From Elusimicrobiaceae bacterium (GTDB lineage: Bacteria > Elusimicrobiota > Elusimicrobia > Elusimicrobiales > Elusimicrobiaceae), in contig JAEEIL010000019.1 in NCBI GenBank assembly GCA_016281355.1, positions 1-47,860 on the forward strand: a DNA stretch of 47,860 nucleotides, given 5' to 3'. The position numbers were made by a program, and so were the translations under genes. Positions 15,243-45,537 of the stretch are shown here, piece after piece (positions within the stretch are counted from its first letter, which is position 1; every line of letters begins with the position of its first letter). Under the pieces are notes generated by a model. That model was not told the DNA's origin, ran no database searches, and was given only the letters and a program-made list of their open reading frames with translations.

Positions 15243-16110
15243 TTTTTTGCAGAGTTTGAAAGTGCGTAATATGTCTCCGCATACCTTAAGGGCTTATACT
15301 AAGGATTTGGAGGCCGCACTTTCTTTCTTTTCAAAAAATAATTTAACTCAAATTAAAGATTTTAATATTAGGAACATTCGTTCTTATCTCGCAGCGGAAA
15401 ATTCCACACAAATCAAACGCAACACTATGCTTCGTAAAATAAGTTCTTTAAGAAGTTTTGCCAAATTTTTGGAAACACGCGGTTTAATAAAATTAAATCC
15501 TTTTAAACTTTTTGATGCTCCAAAACGTGAAAAATTACTTCCGAAATTTTTGACAGAGGAAGAAGCCTCAAATTTAATGGAAGCCCGCCCAAGTAAATTA
15601 TATGCGGCCAGAAACAAAGCAATTTTAGAACTTTTATATTCCAGCGGCTTGCGTCGAACAGAACTTGTAAATTTAAATATTTGTGATATCAATTTCGAGC
15701 AAGGTTATGCAAAAGTTTTAGGTAAAGGTTCAAAAGAACGTATCGTGCCGATAACTGATATTGCACTTGATAGTATCCAAAATTACTTAGCAACGCGCCC
15801 TCAACGTTTACCCACAGAACCGTTGTTTTTGAGCAGTTATAATCGGCGTATTAGTGGGGAAGGAATAAGAAAAATTATAAATCAAAGTGCAATAAACACA
15901 AAACTTACCCGTCATATAACTCCACACAGTTTAAGGCATAGTTTTGCTACGCATTTATTAAATAACGGCTGTGATTTAAAAACTTTACAGGAAATGTTGG
16001 GTCATAAAAGTTTAAGTGCCACGCAAGTTTATACACATGTTTCTTTAGACAGGCTTAAAAAAGTATATAACCATAGTCATCCAAAAAGCAAAACAGGGGG
16101 GCAAATATGA
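15223..16110 (+). CDS. xerC: Tyrosine recombinase XerC/XerD
   Basis: This 295-residue site-specific recombinase resolves chromosome dimers at dif during division. The N-terminal SAM-like core-binding domain (residues 5-90) precedes the catalytic domain. All active-site residues are present: R144 (SGLRRTEL), K168 (LGKGSKERIVP), H235 and R238 (HSLRHSFATHLL), H261 (LGHKSLSATQ) and nucleophile Y270 (VYTH). I choose xerC rather than xerD from the conserved position after dprA-topA; sequence alone does not settle it. The ATG lies inside the topA 3' end. The stop overlaps the next start by four bases. Confidence 0.9.
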   Translation: MQQQINNFLQSLKVRNMSPHTLRAYTKDLEAALSFFSKNNLTQIKDFNIRNIRSYLAAENSTQIKRNTMLRKISSLRSFAKFLETRGLIKLNPFKLFDAPKREKLLPKFLTEEEASNLMEARPSKLYAARNKAILELLYSSGLRRTELVNLNICDINFEQGYAKVLGKGSKERIVPITDIALDSIQNYLATRPQRLPTEPLFLSSYNRRISGEGIRKIINQSAINTKLTRHITPHSLRHSFATHLLNNGCDLKTLQEMLGHKSLSATQVYTHVSLDRLKKVYNHSHPKSKTGGQI

Positions 16111-17057
16111 TTTCCTGCGGGATAGATATCGGTGGAACTTTTGTAAAAATTCTTGCTACTAGCGAGGAGGGGAAAGTTTTAAGAAATCAAAAAATTAAAA
16201 CGCCGTATCATTTGTCTTCTTCTAAATTTTTAGATTTTTTGGCAGATATAATTAATAATTTCAAAAAAGAATTAAAAACAAAAAATATAGTTATAGGCGT
16301 TGGCGTTGCCGGAGATACTGATAATAAAAAAGGCATTTTGCGTTTTGCTCCGAATATTCCTTGGCCTAATTTAAGAATAGCAGAAGGCCTTACAAAACGA
16401 ACAAATTGTAATTGTTTCGTGTCAAATGATGCCAATATGGCTGCTTTTGGTGTTTATAAAAAAGAATTAAAAGAAAAATATAAAAATATTTTAGTTTTTA
16501 CTTTAGGAACAGGTATCGGTGGCGGAATAATCATTGAAGGTAAATTATATCAAGGTTCAACAGGTACTGCAGGGGAGTTTGGGCATATCAAAATAGGGGA
16601 CGCAAAAACCGGAAATCTTTGCGGTTGCGGGGCGCGTGGTTGTCTTGAAAGTTTTATAGGCACAAATACTTTAAAGAAATTAACAGTACAAGAAGTTAAA
16701 AAGAACCCTAAAAGCATACTTGCACAATTAGTTAAAGAAGAAGGGTTTTCTGTTAAATTATTATCGGATGCAGCAAGCAAAAAGGATAAATTTGCCCTTT
16801 CACTTTGGGATTATTTTGGAACTTATTTAGGATATGCGGTAACTGATTTGATTTTAATTTTTAACCCTGAAGTTGTAGTTTTTAGCGGTGGTGTTGCAGG
16901 TGGTGCAAAATATTTTATGCCCGCTTTACTCAAAATTTTGAAAACCCAAAAAATAAAAGAACCATTCAGAAATATTAAGTTATTAGTTTCAAAAACAAAA
17001 GATGTCGGGGCTTTGGGTGCCGCATTATATGCTTTGAGTGTAAATAATGAAAAGTAA
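16107..17057 (+). CDS. ROK-family sugar kinase (glucokinase-like)
   Basis: This 316-residue ROK-fold kinase probably phosphorylates glucose or a related hexose. The ATP-binding DIGGTFVK lies at residues 7-14, the catalytic Asp is D108 (SNDANMAAFG), and the glycine loop reads LGTGIGGGIIIEGK. The ROK zinc site is H160 plus C172, C174 and C179 (CGCGARGC). The sequence resembles glucokinases more than NagC-type repressors because there is no N-terminal helix-turn-helix. The substrate is inferred and N-acetylhexosamines are possible. The ATG overlaps the xerC stop (ATGA) with an AGGGGGG Shine-Dalgarno, and the 3' end overlaps lptD by 11 bases. Confidence 0.9.
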   Translation: MISCGIDIGGTFVKILATSEEGKVLRNQKIKTPYHLSSSKFLDFLADIINNFKKELKTKNIVIGVGVAGDTDNKKGILRFAPNIPWPNLRIAEGLTKRTNCNCFVSNDANMAAFGVYKKELKEKYKNILVFTLGTGIGGGIIIEGKLYQGSTGTAGEFGHIKIGDAKTGNLCGCGARGCLESFIGTNTLKKLTVQEVKKNPKSILAQLVKEEGFSVKLLSDAASKKDKFALSLWDYFGTYLGYAVTDLILIFNPEVVVFSGGVAGGAKYFMPALLKILKTQKIKEPFRNIKLLVSKTKDVGALGAALYALSVNNEK

Positions 17058-19164
17058 ACTTTTATTTATAATTTCTTTGTTTTTACTGAATACTTTTGCT
17101 TTTTGCCAAAGTTCAAACTTGCCTGCACCCGATAAAGAAGATTTTATATTTTTTACCGCAGATGAAGTAAATTACGATAATGTTAACGGTACGGCGCAGC
17201 TAAAAGGGAATGTTCGCATAAATTTAAACAAAGATGATGAACAATATACAGTTTTAGGCCAAGAATTTACTGTATATCCAAAAGAAGAAAAAATAACATC
17301 ATCTTCCCCTGTCACAATTCAAAACAATGAAGGAACTTTTACTTTGCAAAAATTTAGTTATAATACCAAAGATAAAAAAGTTGTTATGGATAATTTTCAG
17401 GCCCAGTATGGCCCGATGCGTATAATTTCCGCAAAACAATTTTCAGGGGAGGAAACAGAATATAATTTAAAGAAAGCAGTTTTAACTTGCTGTGATAGAG
17501 AAGCACCGCATTATACTTTAACAATAGGTAGTGCGAAATTAAAACCTGAGGTCAGTATTTCCGGCACAAATGCTGTTGCGCGTTTAGGAAAAGTTCCTGT
17601 TTTATATTTACCTTATTTTTACCGTTCTTTAAATAAAGATCATTTGTTTACCACATATTTAGATTTCGGTCAAAGTAAAAATACCGGGCTTGGCATATTG
17701 TCGTCTACGGTTTATTCAAAAGGCAATTTTGCTGTCACAGGTAACCTTGATTATTACACAAAAGCAGGTATAGGATACGGTTTAATTTTGGGCTATGATG
17801 ATCCTTCAAAATTTCGTGGAAACATCCAAGCGTATACTATTAAAGATAAAGTTATGGATATGCAACGCTGGGGTATAAACGGTGGTTTTTGGTGGGAGAT
17901 GTACGATAGTTCTAACTCTTTAAACGATGAAGACGGTGCAATATATTTTGCCCAAATGAAAACCCGTACTGTTTCTGATCCGGAATTTAATAATGACTTT
18001 TTTAGAAATAACCCTTATGTCGTTTCGCCTGATAAATTAACCCAAACCTCTTTGGTCCGCCAAAGCCGTGTAAGCAATTTCCGTATCAGTTATTATGATA
18101 TCAGTAAATTAGATGAAACGACAAAAACTTTTCATAATTATAAAACAGATTTGCCGGAAATTGCCTGGAATTTTACCCCTTTTGTATTGCCTAAGACCGG
18201 TGGTATAGTAAATAATTTTAATTTATCTTTCAATAATACAAAGTTTAATGAAACTCCGGCAGATAATAATGACTTTTTACAATATTTTAAAGGTACTTGG
18301 AGAAGTTCAAAAAGTTTCCGCTTACACCGTAATTTAACTTTAACACCAAGTGTTTTTTATAACCAGGAAATTGCTTTTAAAGATCCTAAATCCCAAGAGA
18401 AAGATAATTACGTCGGCCGTTATGGTACGGAAGTTAACTTAAGAACAAATCTTCCGACAGGTGCTTTAGATTTCGGCTACCGCTATAAACACCGCACAAC
18501 GGATAAAGTTTTAGTTATTGATGAATATCAGAATGTCTTTAACCGTGAAGAACAAAATGCTTTTTATGTTCAAAATTATTATATGCCTACAAACAATTTA
18601 TATTTTAAAATCGCAAGTGGCATAGATATAGGCAAAGATATAAATTCTTGGAAATTAAATGACAGATTAGAACCTTTGCTTGCTGAAATCGGTTATTTTA
18701 ACCAACAAAGCGGGACAAATTTCTTCTTACAAAACTTATATGATTTTGATGCCGGCAATCAGGCTTTTGTTTTAAACACAACTTTTCATGATCCGCGTGA
18801 TCCGGAAAATAAATATATTACCTTGGGTGTAACAAATTATAAAACCACACGCCACAGTTTCTTATTTACAACCAAGTTCGCCATTGCCCCTAAAGAAAGT
18901 ACTTGGCATGCAAACATGGGCATAGATTTTGAAATTAAAGATTCTTCTGTTCACGGTTATTCAAAACATATTTTAGTTTATAAAGATTTCCATGATTTTA
19001 ATGTGATGTTAGGTGTCAGGGATAGAAGCCACAACTTATCTTTCCATTTCGCAATAAATGTAATATGTGGCGGTAAAAACAAAGAAACAGCAGCCCAACA
19101 GCGCATAAATCAATATTGGTACCCTTGGCAACAAGGTTATACGGACGCTGGTCCTAATTTATAG
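17047..19164 (+). CDS. lptD: LPS-assembly outer-membrane protein LptD-like
   Basis: This 705-residue outer-membrane protein is probably the LptD translocon that inserts LPS into the outer leaflet. A signal peptide (residues 1-20, ending TFAFC) is followed by an OstA/LptA-like beta-jellyroll (about 30-135, with VNYDNVNGTAQLKGNVRI). A long beta-barrel with alternating aromatic strands follows. The LTCCDREAPHY segment at 146-156 matches the cysteine-containing segment after the jellyroll in LptD proteins. Another cysteine near the C-terminus (VICGGK) could form the disulfide that LptD needs. It overlaps the ROK kinase gene by 11 bases and has no strong Shine-Dalgarno. The lipid A genes elsewhere in the window support the role. 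Confidence 0.85.
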   Translation: MKSKLLFIISLFLLNTFAFCQSSNLPAPDKEDFIFFTADEVNYDNVNGTAQLKGNVRINLNKDDEQYTVLGQEFTVYPKEEKITSSSPVTIQNNEGTFTLQKFSYNTKDKKVVMDNFQAQYGPMRIISAKQFSGEETEYNLKKAVLTCCDREAPHYTLTIGSAKLKPEVSISGTNAVARLGKVPVLYLPYFYRSLNKDHLFTTYLDFGQSKNTGLGILSSTVYSKGNFAVTGNLDYYTKAGIGYGLILGYDDPSKFRGNIQAYTIKDKVMDMQRWGINGGFWWEMYDSSNSLNDEDGAIYFAQMKTRTVSDPEFNNDFFRNNPYVVSPDKLTQTSLVRQSRVSNFRISYYDISKLDETTKTFHNYKTDLPEIAWNFTPFVLPKTGGIVNNFNLSFNNTKFNETPADNNDFLQYFKGTWRSSKSFRLHRNLTLTPSVFYNQEIAFKDPKSQEKDNYVGRYGTEVNLRTNLPTGALDFGYRYKHRTTDKVLVIDEYQNVFNREEQNAFYVQNYYMPTNNLYFKIASGIDIGKDINSWKLNDRLEPLLAEIGYFNQQSGTNFFLQNLYDFDAGNQAFVLNTTFHDPRDPENKYITLGVTNYKTTRHSFLFTTKFAIAPKESTWHANMGIDFEIKDSSVHGYSKHILVYKDFHDFNVMLGVRDRSHNLSFHFAINVICGGKNKETAAQQRINQYWYPWQQGYTDAGPNL

Positions 19165-39849: not shown

Positions 39850-41292
39850 TTAATTCAATATTTTTTTGTCAATTAATTCAACACATTGGCAAATTTGGCA
39901 AGTTTTTTCTTTTTGATTATAGAAAAGAATATTATCTTTATCTTCCACAAAACAAGATTGCCCTTCATTTGTTTTTGTGGCATTTTTTTCTATTTTGCGT
40001 TTTTTACTGAAGTCATCTGTACAAATTTGCAAATCTGTTTGTGCACATAAATATTGCCCATTAGGTTTTAAACAATTACCATTACGGTCATAGTAACCGA
40101 TTCTGCATTTCCAGGGGCAATCATCTTTATCTGTTCCAGCAGATGTAAACACAACTCCTTCTTGTTTTTTCGTGCACGGGGAACATTTAGTTTCACCTTT
40201 TTGCCTATCCCAGAAGGTGCCTGGAGCATAGCAAGTACAATTTTTTGCTTTCTGAATCCAACCTTTTCCTTCCTCACAAGTGTAGTAAATGTTTGTGCAA
40301 ACGCCTTCGTTATCGGGTAAATTAATATTATCTTTATTTTCTGGTTTTTTTACGCATTCTTCTTTTAGAGAGCAGAAATCATCTCCATTACAAGAACATT
40401 CCCAAGAAGTATAATTCCAACCCCTATTTTTTTGGCAAGAAGACAATCTTTTGCAAGATCCGTTATCGACATCTTTTGTTAAAGGTTCCATGTCTTCACA
40501 GTAAACACCGGTAAAGCATTGGTTTTTTGTGCAATCTTTTTCAGTTTGAAGCTGCTTGCAAGTTTTCCCATCCCATTCAAAACCTCTTTCACATTGGCAA
40601 GGAGACCATTCCCCACAAATTCCGGCACCTTCGCAGCTTGGTTGGCATACGCGGGTTTGCGAACCTCTGCCATCACCGCAGAGGCGTTTTGTTTCCGCTT
40701 TTAATCTGGGAGCAAAACAACTTCCGTCTACATAACATAGATTTTCTTCCCCGTTTTTTGCTTGTTTAAAACATTTTTTACCTTGGCATAAAACTTTGCC
40801 ATTTGTAAATGAAGCATAAAAAGTAGTTTGATTTATTGTATTTCTTTCGTGTTTCAAAACAAGGCAGCCGTTTTCGGCATCAACATCTATAAAAAAATCG
40901 CCACTTTGTCCCACATTTAAATCTTGATTTGAGTCTTTACTTCGTCTTCTCCTTCTGCTCATAAAGAGAGGATCTTCCATAGAATTCATATCGTTATAAC
41001 CTACGGTTATTTGTAATTCGCGGACTAATTTTTCATCTGAAAATATATCTTTTTTATACTGTTTTTCCGTATTTAAAAAATCTTGTTCGCTTTGTGAAAT
41101 TTTTGCTACAATTTTTTTTGCTTGCCTCAGCATACTATATTTTTGCCATAAGTCTTTCCCTAAGAAATAACCTGTAAACAAAGACAAAACTACCACTGCA
41201 AAGATTATTCTTTGCGTCTTTGTAGTTTTTTTAAATAAATCTTTTATGTAAACTAGTGCTTCTTGGACATTTATGTCCGCAATACTTTTCAT
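39850..41292 (-). CDS. Membrane-anchored cysteine-rich protein of unknown function
   Basis: This 480-residue protein has a short cytoplasmic N-terminus and one membrane helix (IIFAVVVLSLFTGYFLG, about residues 30-46). A helical stalk follows, and then from about residue 140 a long extracytoplasmic region with dozens of cysteines. Repeated short EGF-like pieces are visible (CQCERGFEWDGKTC, CTCYAPGTFWDRQKG), plus GRGSQTRVCQPSCEG, which resembles a thrombospondin type 1 segment. I do not recognise the whole protein. I start at 41292 because TATACT sits 6 nt upstream of that ATG; the ATG at 41307 overlaps this -10 box. It is divergent from the c-di-GMP gene. Confidence 0.8.
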   Translation of the reverse strand: MKSIADINVQEALVYIKDLFKKTTKTQRIIFAVVVLSLFTGYFLGKDLWQKYSMLRQAKKIVAKISQSEQDFLNTEKQYKKDIFSDEKLVRELQITVGYNDMNSMEDPLFMSRRRRRSKDSNQDLNVGQSGDFFIDVDAENGCLVLKHERNTINQTTFYASFTNGKVLCQGKKCFKQAKNGEENLCYVDGSCFAPRLKAETKRLCGDGRGSQTRVCQPSCEGAGICGEWSPCQCERGFEWDGKTCKQLQTEKDCTKNQCFTGVYCEDMEPLTKDVDNGSCKRLSSCQKNRGWNYTSWECSCNGDDFCSLKEECVKKPENKDNINLPDNEGVCTNIYYTCEEGKGWIQKAKNCTCYAPGTFWDRQKGETKCSPCTKKQEGVVFTSAGTDKDDCPWKCRIGYYDRNGNCLKPNGQYLCAQTDLQICTDDFSKKRKIEKNATKTNEGQSCFVEDKDNILFYNQKEKTCQICQCVELIDKKILN

Positions 41293-41298
41293 AATTAT

Positions 41299-41304
41299 AG
41301 TATA
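41299..41304 (-). promoter_or_regulatory. -10 box of the Cys-rich protein gene, leaderless layout
   Basis: On the minus strand TATACT (preceded by TG) is followed by six bases and the ATG at 41292. A TATAAT-like sequence also lies closer to the ATG, but too near to place +1 upstream of it. Confidence 0.45.
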
Positions 41305-41323
41305 CATTTTTTATCTTAATTTG

Positions 41324-41355: not shown

Positions 41356-43629
41356 ATGAAAAACAATAAAAATCTATTTTCAATAACCTTATTGGTTTTT
41401 TTGGTTGCCGCATTTATATTGACGGGTGGAATATATTTTAGTTTTAGTTTAAGAAACATTTTATTAGGGCAACAAAAAGTGTATTTGCAAGAGATAACAA
41501 AACGAGCATCTGCCGATTTTGCAGGATACTTGGAAAGGGAAATGCAATCATTAAAGGCTATTTCCACAGTACTTTCAAATTTTTATAGTTATTCTTCCCT
41601 TGATGAATATTTAACAATATTAGATGAACTTGCAAAAGATTATGTTTTTAAAGATATAGGTATATTACCCATACGCAGTAAAACTGCTTATTTCGGAAAT
41701 GGTGAAACGTCTGCAGATTTTCTCTCTCAAAGTATTGTTGATGAAGTTATTGAAGGCAAAAGCATAATATCAAACTTAAATTATGATCCTTTTACGAAAC
41801 AACCAATTATTGTTTATGCCACGCCATTTATAGTCAACGGTAGAACAGAAGCGGTTCTTTTTGCGACTCAAAGGATTGAAGAATTTCAGAAAATTCTTGC
41901 TAAATATAAAATTTCCGGGGAAGGGTTTACCGCTGTATTAAATAAAAAGAATCAACTTATTGTTGATACAAGCCAAGATTCTTTTGAACCGCAAGATTTA
42001 AAGCAACTCCTTTCAATTTACGGTAAAGAAGGTTTGTATCTTTATAATGAGTTATTTAAAGCAATCAATATCGAAAACACCGGCGTTCTTAGTTACTTTA
42101 CCGCCAAAACAAAGGAACGCAGGTTGATTTCCTTCGTAAAAATTTCTGTTTATGGGCTTAATGATTGGCATTTGCTTTTTGTAGTTCCGTCCAAAGTAGT
42201 ATCTGTTTTGCAAAAGAAAATATTTTTAGGTTCTTTGGTTTTTTGTTTTGCACTACTTCTTGCTTTTGCTGTAATCATCATATTTATCGAAAAACGGGAA
42301 CACGAACAAAAACGCGAGATTTTTGAGACTGCTTTCAAAGATAAAGTCACAGGCGCATATAATATGGCAAGATTTAATATGGAAATGACTAAAATACTGA
42401 AAGCAAAACCAGAGCAAAAATTTGCTTTAGTCCTTTTTGATATAGATAAATTTAAATTGATAAACGACCTTTACGGATATAGGCAAGGGGATTTGGTATT
42501 AAATCATATTACAAATGTTTTGGAAGAAAATTTAGATAAAAATAAAGGCGAAATTTTTTGCCGCTTGATAGGGGATATATTTTTGTGCCTTATCAATTAT
42601 GAAGAAGGCAAAGACATAACACTTCGTTTGGAAAAAATTTATAAAGCAACACAGAATTGCTATGCTATAACGGATATGCATTACAATATTGTTACTCATT
42701 TCGGTATTTACAGGATAACTGAAGATCTGCCTTTCTACTTAATGCTCGATAGGGCAAGTTTGGCTAAGAAAACTGCAAAAGAACATATAAACGAAAAATA
42801 TGTCTTTTATGATGATAGTACCCTAAAAAACGTTTTACAAGATAAAGAAATTGAAAACAGCATGCAGCAATCTTTAAAAGATGAAGAATTCAAACTTTAT
42901 TTCCAACCTAAATGTTCTTTTAATAAAGATGATATTTGCAGTGCAGAAGTACTTGTTCGTTGGCATAATAAAAAAAGAGGACTGCTTTTACCCAATTCCT
43001 TTATTCCGATATTTGAACGCGACGGTTTTATTATCAAATTAGATTTTTATGTTTTGGAAAAAGCCTTGCAAACTTTAAGAGCATGGTTAGATGCCGGTTT
43101 AAAACCGTGTAAATTGTCAATCAATTTCTCAAGGTTGCATTTAAAGGATGAACTGAGCCTTCCTAAAATAAAAATTTTATTAGATCTTTATAAAATCCCT
43201 ACGGATTTACTGGAACTTGAAATTACAGAAACTGCTGTTATGAATAACACACCCGAAGCCAGAAAATTTGTAGAAGGTTTACACAATTTGGGTATAGCTG
43301 TTGCAATGGATGATTTCGGTTCCGGGTTTTCCTCATTAAATGTTCTTAAAGATTTGCCGTTTGATACACTCAAAATTGATAAAGAATTTTTAAGAGATTT
43401 TGGCAAGAACCCACGTACCCTTGCAATACTCGAGGGTATTATATCTATGTCAAAAAATATGAAAACCTGTATAGTTGCCGAAGGTGTGGAAACAAAAGAA
43501 CAAGCAGATTTTCTAACTTCTTTAAAGTGCGATTTGGCACAAGGTTTCTTATACTATAAACCTATGAATACCGAAGAATTTGAAAAATTATTAAATAAAA
43601 ATAATGAAAAGGGACAGGAAAAACCGTAA
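41356..43629 (+). CDS. PDC-sensor GGDEF-EAL protein, probable c-di-GMP phosphodiesterase
   Basis: This 757-residue inner-membrane signalling protein has TM1 at about 9-30, then a periplasmic Cache/PDC-like sensor (about 31-285) and TM2 at about 289-311. A GGDEF-type domain (about 328-485) and an EAL domain (about 495-750) follow. The GGDEF motif is IGDIF at 405-409, so cyclase activity is probably lost, although FDIDKFKLINDLYG is kept. No RxxD inhibitory site is seen. The EAL domain keeps E531 (EVL), N590, the ELEITET glutamates, D652/D653 (DDFGSG), K673, E709 and Q729, so it should be an active phosphodiesterase. It lies between two Cys-rich surface protein genes. It might control adhesion or pili; that is inference. 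Confidence 0.92.
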   Translation: MKNNKNLFSITLLVFLVAAFILTGGIYFSFSLRNILLGQQKVYLQEITKRASADFAGYLEREMQSLKAISTVLSNFYSYSSLDEYLTILDELAKDYVFKDIGILPIRSKTAYFGNGETSADFLSQSIVDEVIEGKSIISNLNYDPFTKQPIIVYATPFIVNGRTEAVLFATQRIEEFQKILAKYKISGEGFTAVLNKKNQLIVDTSQDSFEPQDLKQLLSIYGKEGLYLYNELFKAINIENTGVLSYFTAKTKERRLISFVKISVYGLNDWHLLFVVPSKVVSVLQKKIFLGSLVFCFALLLAFAVIIIFIEKREHEQKREIFETAFKDKVTGAYNMARFNMEMTKILKAKPEQKFALVLFDIDKFKLINDLYGYRQGDLVLNHITNVLEENLDKNKGEIFCRLIGDIFLCLINYEEGKDITLRLEKIYKATQNCYAITDMHYNIVTHFGIYRITEDLPFYLMLDRASLAKKTAKEHINEKYVFYDDSTLKNVLQDKEIENSMQQSLKDEEFKLYFQPKCSFNKDDICSAEVLVRWHNKKRGLLLPNSFIPIFERDGFIIKLDFYVLEKALQTLRAWLDAGLKPCKLSINFSRLHLKDELSLPKIKILLDLYKIPTDLLELEITETAVMNNTPEARKFVEGLHNLGIAVAMDDFGSGFSSLNVLKDLPFDTLKIDKEFLRDFGKNPRTLAILEGIISMSKNMKTCIVAEGVETKEQADFLTSLKCDLAQGFLYYKPMNTEEFEKLLNKNNEKGQEKP

Positions 43630-43645
43630 TTTGGGCAAAAAAATA

Positions 43646-43718
43646 CACCCCAGATAGGACTTGAACCTACAACCTTATCCTTAGGACGGATCTGCTCTTC
43701 CAATTGAGCTACTGGGGC
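43646..43718 (-). tRNA. tRNA-Arg (anticodon CCU)
   Basis: A 73-nt cloverleaf on the minus strand. The acceptor GCCCCAG pairs with CTGGGGT (1:72 G-U), followed by discriminator G73. D arm GCTC/GAGC with an 8-nt loop. The anticodon stem GATCC/GGATA has a G27-A43 mismatch; the loop GTCCTAA has anticodon CCU at 34-36. The T arm GTAGG/CCTAT has loop TTCAAGT, and the variable loop has 5 nt. It reads AGG. No CCA is encoded; a T-rich run follows. Position 32 is G, which is unusual. Confidence 0.93.
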
Positions 43719-43812
43719 ATATCTAAATTATACAATTTTTGGTAATATTATTGAAATTTAGCCTGATTTAAGATATTATATACTTATACATTTGATAGGA
43801 GAAAATATCAAT

Positions 43813-45504
43813 ATGAAAAATAAAAAACAAAAAGGATATACCTTGGTTGAAATTTTAGTGACAGTAACAATTATTACTGTGATGGCATATTTTGCTGTTC
43901 CTGTGTATAATAAAATTGTGCAACAGTCAGATGTTTCAGATGCTTTACATAATATAGACATGTTTTCCAACGCCCAAGAAAAATATTATATTCAAAATGG
44001 GAAATATACGGGTAATTTAGGCCAATTGGAAACACCTTTAAAAGGTGAAAAAGCGACTGTTGAAACAACCAAATTTTCTTATTCTGCCGGTGACCCTAGG
44101 GAAGATGATTATTGCATCTATTCTAAAAGCAGAACTAAAAATTATGTTCTTGCCAGGAATTACAAGATAAATTCCGAGATTTTATGCAATGGCGATGATT
44201 GTGGTAAAGTAGAATCTTTTGTTAAAAAAGGGGATTTTAAAGAAATGTGCAGTAAGAGCAGTAACAATACCCCCAATCAAAATTGTAATAATACTGAAAG
44301 TTATTGTAAATCAATTAACCCAAAGTGGGGTTTACGCAAAGACTGCTCTTGTGGCTGTACTGTTGAAGAAAAAATATGTAGTAAAAGTCAAAGATGGAGT
44401 GCTGAAGAATGTGCCTGCGTACTATGGAATTCATGTGATTTGACCGAAGAAAAGTGCAAGTCACTTTATACACCAAACCACTTTTTGTATATGGACGGTT
44501 CAGGTTCTTGTGAGTGTAAATGCAGATTCACCACTGCTATTTGTAATGAGAACAATGCCGATAGTTTTGATGAAAAGACATGCAGTTGTGTTTGCGTAAA
44601 TGATGACGTAAAAAAATGTGCGGAGCAAAACAAAGTTCTTACCGGGGATTGCCAATGTATTTGTGCCGAAATTAAAAAATGTAACAAGGGATATGTCTTC
44701 AGCCATGAAAAATGCGAATGCATAAAAACTGATTGCGGTATCACGGAAGAAGAGTGTAAAGAAAAGAATAAGAATTGGACATTGTTAGAAGATTGTTCTT
44801 GTGGCTGTGAACAATCGTTGGTAGTCAAAAGATGTCCGGATGGCTATTCTTATAGCCAAGAAAAATGTGCTTGCGTAATGGACGAATGCACTAAAACGGA
44901 CGAAGAATGTCAGAAATATTACGGTAAATACTTTATCTTGAACAAAGAAAAATGTTCTTGCGAATGCGGTATAACAGAAGATAAGTGCAAAAGTGAAGTA
45001 GGGATTTTAAATAAAGAAAAGTGCGTTTGCGAACCAATTTCTTGCACTAAAACGGACGAAGAATGCAAGAAAGAAAACGAAAATTGGGCTTTGTTAGATG
45101 GTTGTACTTGCGGATGCCCTAAAGTTGAGAAATGCAACAGTAAACTAGAATTTTGGAATAGTGAAACATGTAAATGTGAGTTTGGTACCCAACTGTGTAA
45201 TTTAACATTAAAGGAATGTCAAGGAATAAATGAAAACTACATTTTAGATACAGACAGTTGTAACTGTAAATGCGGATTGACTGAAAAAGAATGTACTTCA
45301 CAAGGCCTTCAATATAATGTAGCTAAATGTAAATGCGAAGGGGAACTCTGCGATTTAACAGAAAATGAATGCCAGGGCAAAAATAAATATTGGACTTTAT
45401 TAAAAGATTGCACTTGCGGATGTGAAACAGTAGAATTGTGCGACAGCGGTTTAAAGTGGGACGAAAACTTGTGTAAGTGTGTTTCATCAGTAATAAAACA
45501 ATAA
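43813..45504 (+). CDS. Prepilin-like protein with eight 8-cysteine modules
   Basis: This 563-residue protein begins at 43813, 11 nt after AGGAG; the upstream in-frame TTG at 43792 lies before that site. The leader MKNKKQKG is cut before YTLVEILVTVTIITVMAYFAVP (Glu at +5), a class III prepilin signal. A pilin-like head (about 30-155) is followed by residues 158-556, made of eight consecutive modules with eight cysteines each. The spacing is C-x6-C-x10-17-C-x-C-x-C-x5-8-C-x10-12-C-x-C. Typical text is CGITEEECKEKNKNWTLLED. I know no family with this build. It is probably exported and oxidised into disulfide-linked units, as a pilus-associated or surface adhesin. A terminator follows. Confidence 0.88.
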   Translation: MKNKKQKGYTLVEILVTVTIITVMAYFAVPVYNKIVQQSDVSDALHNIDMFSNAQEKYYIQNGKYTGNLGQLETPLKGEKATVETTKFSYSAGDPREDDYCIYSKSRTKNYVLARNYKINSEILCNGDDCGKVESFVKKGDFKEMCSKSSNNTPNQNCNNTESYCKSINPKWGLRKDCSCGCTVEEKICSKSQRWSAEECACVLWNSCDLTEEKCKSLYTPNHFLYMDGSGSCECKCRFTTAICNENNADSFDEKTCSCVCVNDDVKKCAEQNKVLTGDCQCICAEIKKCNKGYVFSHEKCECIKTDCGITEEECKEKNKNWTLLEDCSCGCEQSLVVKRCPDGYSYSQEKCACVMDECTKTDEECQKYYGKYFILNKEKCSCECGITEDKCKSEVGILNKEKCVCEPISCTKTDEECKKENENWALLDGCTCGCPKVEKCNSKLEFWNSETCKCEFGTQLCNLTLKECQGINENYILDTDSCNCKCGLTEKECTSQGLQYNVAKCKCEGELCDLTENECQGKNKYWTLLKDCTCGCETVELCDSGLKWDENLCKCVSSVIKQ

Positions 45505-45510
45505 AATTTA

Positions 45511-45537
45511 AGCGCCCGCTTTTCAGCGGGCGTTTTT
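45511..45537 (+). terminator. Intrinsic terminator after the Cys-module prepilin gene
   Basis: An 8-10 bp stem (cgcccgct / agcgggcg, plus flanking wobbles) with a 4-nt loop is followed by TTTTT, 6 nt past the stop codon. Confidence 0.92.

Follow-up and report, generated by a model that had tools for sequence, protein, structure and literature searches.

The question raised by this locus is what a type IV prepilin followed by a long tail of cysteine modules might be, and what such a tail might do. The gene lies in a stretch of 47,860 nucleotides (hereafter the window, that is, the whole DNA analyzed) from a gut-type Elusimicrobiaceae bacterium. The best reading is that the protein represents a modular type IV pilin, a pilin of a known kind whose tandem-module tail is new. 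Modular pilins combine an N-terminal class III signal, a small pilin module, and a large C-terminal module foreign to pilus biology (PMC8179133). PilB and PilC of Streptococcus sanguinis belong to this class (Raynaud et al. 2021, PMC8179133), and the grafting of adhesive modules onto pilins has been experimentally established, PilB being a tested adhesin (PMC8179133). As far as the main text of that source goes, the most extreme modular pilin in its dataset of 264 architectures has 860 residues and 12 copies of IPR013211, and cysteine modules are not mentioned.

The prepilin and its module array

The features of the locus are collected in Table 1. The ATG at 43813 appears a more likely start than the TTG at 43792, and because a promoter-like site precedes the gene and a GC-rich terminator-like hairpin follows it, the gene reads as a stand-alone one. 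The class III prepilin signal proposed in the initial annotation is borne out: MKNKKQKG/YTLVE (the slash marks the predicted cleavage) consists of a basic leader ending in G and a Glu at position +5, followed by a hydrophobic helix, and both N_methyl (PF07963; 27.9 bits, cut-off 21.2) and TIGR02532 (20.9 bits, cut-off 16.3) exceed their curated cut-offs. The pilin head covers approximately residues 1–157, leader included, and ComP_DUS and Pilin_GH score below their cut-offs on it in the profile scan. The eight modules, which are not specific to pilus biology, occupy residues 158–563. The protein thus has the architecture of PilB and PilC, from which it differs in its extra part, where eight tandem 8-Cys modules take the place of a single vWA or lectin domain.

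The protein contains 68 cysteines, four in the head and 64 within residues 158–556, where the order C-x6-C-x(10-17)-C-x-C-x-C-x(5-8)-C-x(10-12)-C-x-C is repeated eight times, and the cysteine list confirms the count and the modules first noticed. The spacing had been called strictly regular, which holds for the C-x6-C step (seven of the eight modules, with x7 in module 3) and for the CxCxC and CxC steps (all eight), whereas the remaining spacers vary more. Nine CxCxC motifs are observed, against a mean of 1.1 in the shuffled tail. A smaller unit, C-x5-8-C-x10-17-C-x-C, forms each 4-Cys half and occurs twice per module, in 16 copies. Since the first halves are closer to each other (25% identity at non-Cys positions) than to the second halves (13%), the 8-Cys pair appears to be the unit that was duplicated; the sequences point to an old duplication of whole pairs, of which mostly the cysteines and a few first-half positions remain. 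The tail is acidic (pI 4.9, net charge −18) and is composed throughout of a single module type, and no terminal binding domain is recognised in it.

Table 1. Features of the pilin gene and of its surroundings, in window positions
Feature	Position	Strand	Evidence or remark
485-aa membrane protein, 36 Cys, no prepilin signal	39850..41307	-	Orthologs only in G002, G003, G014
Membrane Cache-like sensor with GGDEF and EAL (c-di-GMP)	41356..43629	+	Pfam; syntenic in G002, G003, G014
tRNA-Arg (CCT), one edge of the pilin slot	43645..43719	-	ARAGORN; same place in G002, G014
Promoter-like site TTGAAA-17-TATTAT	43751..43779	+	Consensus scan, 10/12 matches; function putative
Shine-Dalgarno-like AGGAGA, 10 nt 5' of ATG	43797..43802	+	Sequence
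Cys-rich modular prepilin, whole gene	43813..45504	+	ORF, RBS, prepilin motif; 563 aa, ATG start
Prepilin leader MKNKKQKG, predicted cleavage after G8, Glu at mature position 5	43813..43836	+	N_methyl PF07963, TIGR02532
Pilin head: hydrophobic alpha1 and globular part, four Cys (101, 125, 130, 146)	43837..44283	+	ComP_DUS/Pilin_GH sub-threshold
8-Cys module 1	44284..44433	+	Cys spacing, module profile
8-Cys module 2	44434..44592	+	Cys spacing, module profile
8-Cys module 3, x7 in first step	44593..44733	+	Cys spacing, module profile
8-Cys module 4	44734..44886	+	Cys spacing, module profile
8-Cys module 5	44887..45042	+	Cys spacing, module profile
8-Cys module 6	45043..45195	+	Cys spacing, module profile
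8-Cys module 7	45196..45348	+	Cys spacing, module profile
8-Cys module 8	45349..45501	+	Cys spacing, module profile, AF2 model pLDDT 81.7
Terminator-like GC stem-loop, then T run	45513..45532	+	Sequence

The AF2 model of module 8, built from the eight module sequences, predicts that the first half contains a short helix and a pair of short strands, and that the second forms a hairpin. The full-length model (three sequences; mean pLDDT 54, pTM 0.21) is too poor to read and lends no support to the rod shape that had been suggested for the tail. Foldseek and VIA-align searches with the 51-residue module gave no usable fold match. An EGF-like domain was considered and rejected, as Pfam reported no EGF family on the whole pilin or on the modules at E up to 10, and the best Foldseek match was factor IX at E 4.3.

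Resemblance to animal cysteine-rich repeats

Two animal families recall the module. Pfam CXCXC (PF03128; cut-off 15) scored 16.1–17.8 bits at three sites of the window pilin, exceeded its cut-off at one site in a paralog on contig C14 of the same genome, and did so in none of 14 control genomes. When modules were scanned singly, nine of 14 matched it (best E 0.022), and the whole-protein hmmscan of the window pilin did not report it; with a model of 13 positions, such matches are evidence of a pattern and not of descent. The VEGF heparin-binding domain (PF14554) was matched by four of these modules (best E 0.0019). A profile built from all 14 retrieved only VEGF entries from the PDB, the heparin-binding domain being the best (E 1.9e-4), and a profile of the eight window modules again found that type only (E 0.004). 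With permuted non-Cys columns, VEGF was still the best match (E 0.03), which was not the case for the reversed profile. The real profiles scored 20–24 bits against the VEGF domain, whereas within-spacer permutations averaged 11–12 bits (0/150 reaching the real score) and permutations of all non-Cys columns gave 7–10 bits (at most 1/150), in a comparison that is biased because the VEGF target had been picked by the real profile. A claim of homology with VEGF was dropped, since the Cys scaffold carries much of the score in the permuted controls. On these alignments the scaffold common to the module and the VEGF domain looks sound; common descent does not.

The likeness to the VEGF-A heparin-binding domain (PF14554; PDB 1kmx/1vgh) consists of eight cysteines in two 4-Cys halves, with an end that reads CxCxC-x6-C-x10-CxC or nearly so. 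In each half of the VEGF domain, the disulfides join C1 with C3 and C2 with C4. The first step is C-x2-C in VEGF and C-x6-C in the pilin module, and the pilin has eight tandem copies and no VEGF receptor-binding domain; in place of a strongly basic domain (pI above 9) behind that receptor-binding domain, an acidic tail stands behind a pilin head. Because of this difference in charge, heparin binding is not transferable to the pilin, and the function need not be common. The VEGF domain has two subdomains, both of which contain a short two-stranded sheet and two disulfides (PMC9856036). In terms of BR3P it is composed of a complete repeat and an incomplete one (PMC10328876); the origin of this repeat has been called unknown (PMC5816233). 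With the BR3P/CXCXC repeats of midge silk and of the VEGF-C/D silk homology domain (PF03128) the pilin shares a tandem C-x10-C-x-C-x(1-3)-C rhythm. Unlike them, its halves add the C-x6-C step, the first-half spacer is longer (10–17), and the host molecule is a bacterial pilin rather than an animal secreted protein. In our view it is very doubtful that the silk/VEGF-type CXCXC module has here a true relative in gut bacteria, whether acquired by transfer or inherited from deep ancestry, that was multiplied on type IV pili to give disulfide arms, which an anaerobe would oxidise without a known Dsb or VKOR.

Giant pilins of the lineage and the tRNA-Arg–hisS slot

The genome (1.5 Mb, 46 contigs) yields 36 N_methyl matches, of which nine fall in frames longer than 300 aa, together with a prepilin peptidase gene (C14:5218-5463; PF06750, E 1.7e-37) and four T2SSE ATPase matches (PF00437). 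Three giant Cys-rich pilins of 773, 660, and 931 aa (C14:6967-14343) adjoin the peptidase gene, and each carries a single 8-Cys module closely behind its head. Within this genome, the matches of the module profile are confined to ORFs with a prepilin signal. The contrast between one module in these paralogs and eight in the window pilin favors the growth by repeat duplication that had been proposed. The peptidase and the three pilins might form a pilin island (L030, C14:5188-14343).

Among 40 relatives, unambiguous copies of the module are confined to G000 (the present genome), G002, and G003; G012 and G013 give partial matches. As suggested in the initial annotation, the search was run on Elusimicrobiota: 248 genomes of the phylum gave one further weak match (G156, another genus of the same family), in a frame that has CXCXC over the cut-off and no visible N-terminus, so that the module is found in few genomes, all of one family. 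No relative of the tail was found in plasmids and phages. The search with the pilin head returned a single named relative, G002 (JAFZUQ010000007.1), a MAG of Elusimicrobiaceae obtained from the rumen of a water buffalo. The placement of the window's genome in the same genus follows the tool-assigned kinship.

The window pilin head is 36–40% identical to those of other giant pilins of the genus, which likewise have a prepilin signal and a Cys-rich tail; their tails, including those of the C14 paralogs, have other cysteine architectures, in which the 8-Cys module is absent or single. The longest of these pilins have 2285, 1860, and 1577 aa (L066, L068, and L069, in G001, G008, and G011) and 119–164 cysteines, reaching 164 in a protein of 2285 aa. 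The window pilin belongs to a lineage-specific set of giant cysteine-rich pilins, which are probably surface adhesins and which appear to have been multiplied and diversified in this lineage. The initial claim of a new kind of surface fibre must be narrowed, since modular pilins were already described (PMC8179133); what is new is the module type and the lineage-wide set. The literature searched contained no description of the 8-Cys module on pilins, and it is an animal repeat already described that the module resembles. By eye, repeats such as CGTCGSQTRTCQKTC and CTNKPIGYYWTGHGG in the L066, L068, and L069 pilins look thrombospondin-like.

The gene order in the window is GGDEF-EAL gene, tRNA-Arg(CCT), pilin, hisS, and aspS. 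The slot between tRNA-Arg and hisS harbors no pilin in G014, one in the window, and two in tandem in G002. In G014 (L095) a terminator-like remnant resembling the end of the pilin terminator is kept before hisS, which suggests a loss of the pilin. The head of the window pilin is about 50% identical to those of the two G002 pilins, whereas the tails align in their Cys units only; the G002 tails contain eight and six strict 4-Cys units and then other Cys-rich sequence. It appears, then, that the head was kept while the tail was rebuilt between species, and the slot with zero, one, and two pilins in three species offers a clear case of tail turnover on a conserved head. The 485-aa protein encoded at 39850-41307 has a weak pilin-like stretch after its TM helix (hhalign to pilin heads, probability 26%), and a direct sequence comparison with the window pilin gave no match; it is possibly a pilin whose cleavage signal was lost.

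The role of the tail

We propose, with a probability of roughly 0.6, that the protein is a modular type IV pilin whose acidic, disulfide-stapled module arm projects from the pilus, for binding or spacing. The prepilin peptidase would remove the short basic leader and, as the signal suggests and the presence of the peptidase and ATPases allows, the hydrophobic alpha1 would pack the head into a type IV pilus. Each module would consist of two small hairpin units stapled by disulfides, predicted as C1-C3 and C2-C4 in each half, and the tail might project from the tip or the side of the pilus as a protease-resistant arm, binding a gut surface or a partner, or spacing other pilus parts from the cell. 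By analogy with known modular pilins, it is probably an adhesive or spacer arm; as no ligand-binding domain is recognised in the tail, the adhesive role would be assigned by that analogy. The ancestor probably had one module behind the head, as the C14 paralogs still do, which would have been amplified to eight in the window gene, while the sister species would have rebuilt the tail differently. Such a rapid change of the tail on a conserved head would fit an adhesin with a varying target. We guess from synteny that the adjacent c-di-GMP enzyme may regulate the pilin. If so read, the locus would extend modular pilins to tandem cysteine-module tails.

Some of the same evidence might be explained by a tail that is inert, disulfide-hardened padding, coating or lengthening the pilus as in silk-type BR3P proteins, with no specific ligand. 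A tail that consists of one module type and lacks a terminal binding domain, a scaffold resembling the silk repeat, and inter-Cys sequences that have drifted far would all agree with this, whereas the sister pilins end in other Cys-rich sequence and not in more modules, which would also fit a diversification of binding; we hold such padding to be rather unlikely. It is less probable still that the protein forms no surface pilus at all, being a membrane-anchored or T2SS-like pseudopilin with a periplasmic tail. Indeed, the head matches GspG/ComP-type models weakly and not all of the roughly 36 pilin-like genes in 1.5 Mb can encode major pilins, but with its tail of about 400 aa the protein does not resemble ordinary pseudopilins, and pilins located at the tip have been described with large C-terminal modules (PMC8179133).

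A different matter concerns the state of the cysteines, which might stay as thiols and bind metal ions or carry electrons in a host with no evident periplasmic disulfide oxidase. CxC and CxCxC motifs, both present in the tail, are able to bind metal. In profile searches of the genome, which covered VKOR, DsbA, and Thioredoxin_4, VKOR was not found and DsbA and Thioredoxin_4 gave only matches below the cut-off, which leaves some room for a thiol or metal tail. Nonetheless, up to E 10 neither the whole pilin nor the modules match a metallothionein or Fe-S family in Pfam, the module scaffold agrees with that of a disulfide domain, and a periplasmic CGHC protein is present, so that we consider a metal-binding or redox tail quite improbable and retain the disulfide-stapled arm. 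The CGHC protein, which is thioredoxin-like and has a signal peptide, is followed by a CcdA-like membrane protein (L098, C33:1417-2651, read by eye); this is the sole exported thiol-redox pair seen, and it may be reducing rather than oxidising. How an exported protein with 68 cysteines would fold in a gut anaerobe that has no evident VKOR or DsbA is a question raised by this locus.

Some minor observations concern other frames. Two pilins, at L032 (3202-4404, minus strand) and L033 (2558-3901, plus strand), have a different Cys repeat, about 20 aa long and built around INxGGxCxGxG, resembling beta-helix turns. At L030, a 950-aa Cys-free frame (15992-18844, minus strand), whose repeats are rich in GG (VADGG, LSGG), reaches the contig end and looks like an autotransporter by eye. 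Finally, L035 (on C33) harbors two tandem, near-alike pilins of 387 and 377 aa, whose sequences diverge midway through the C-terminal part.
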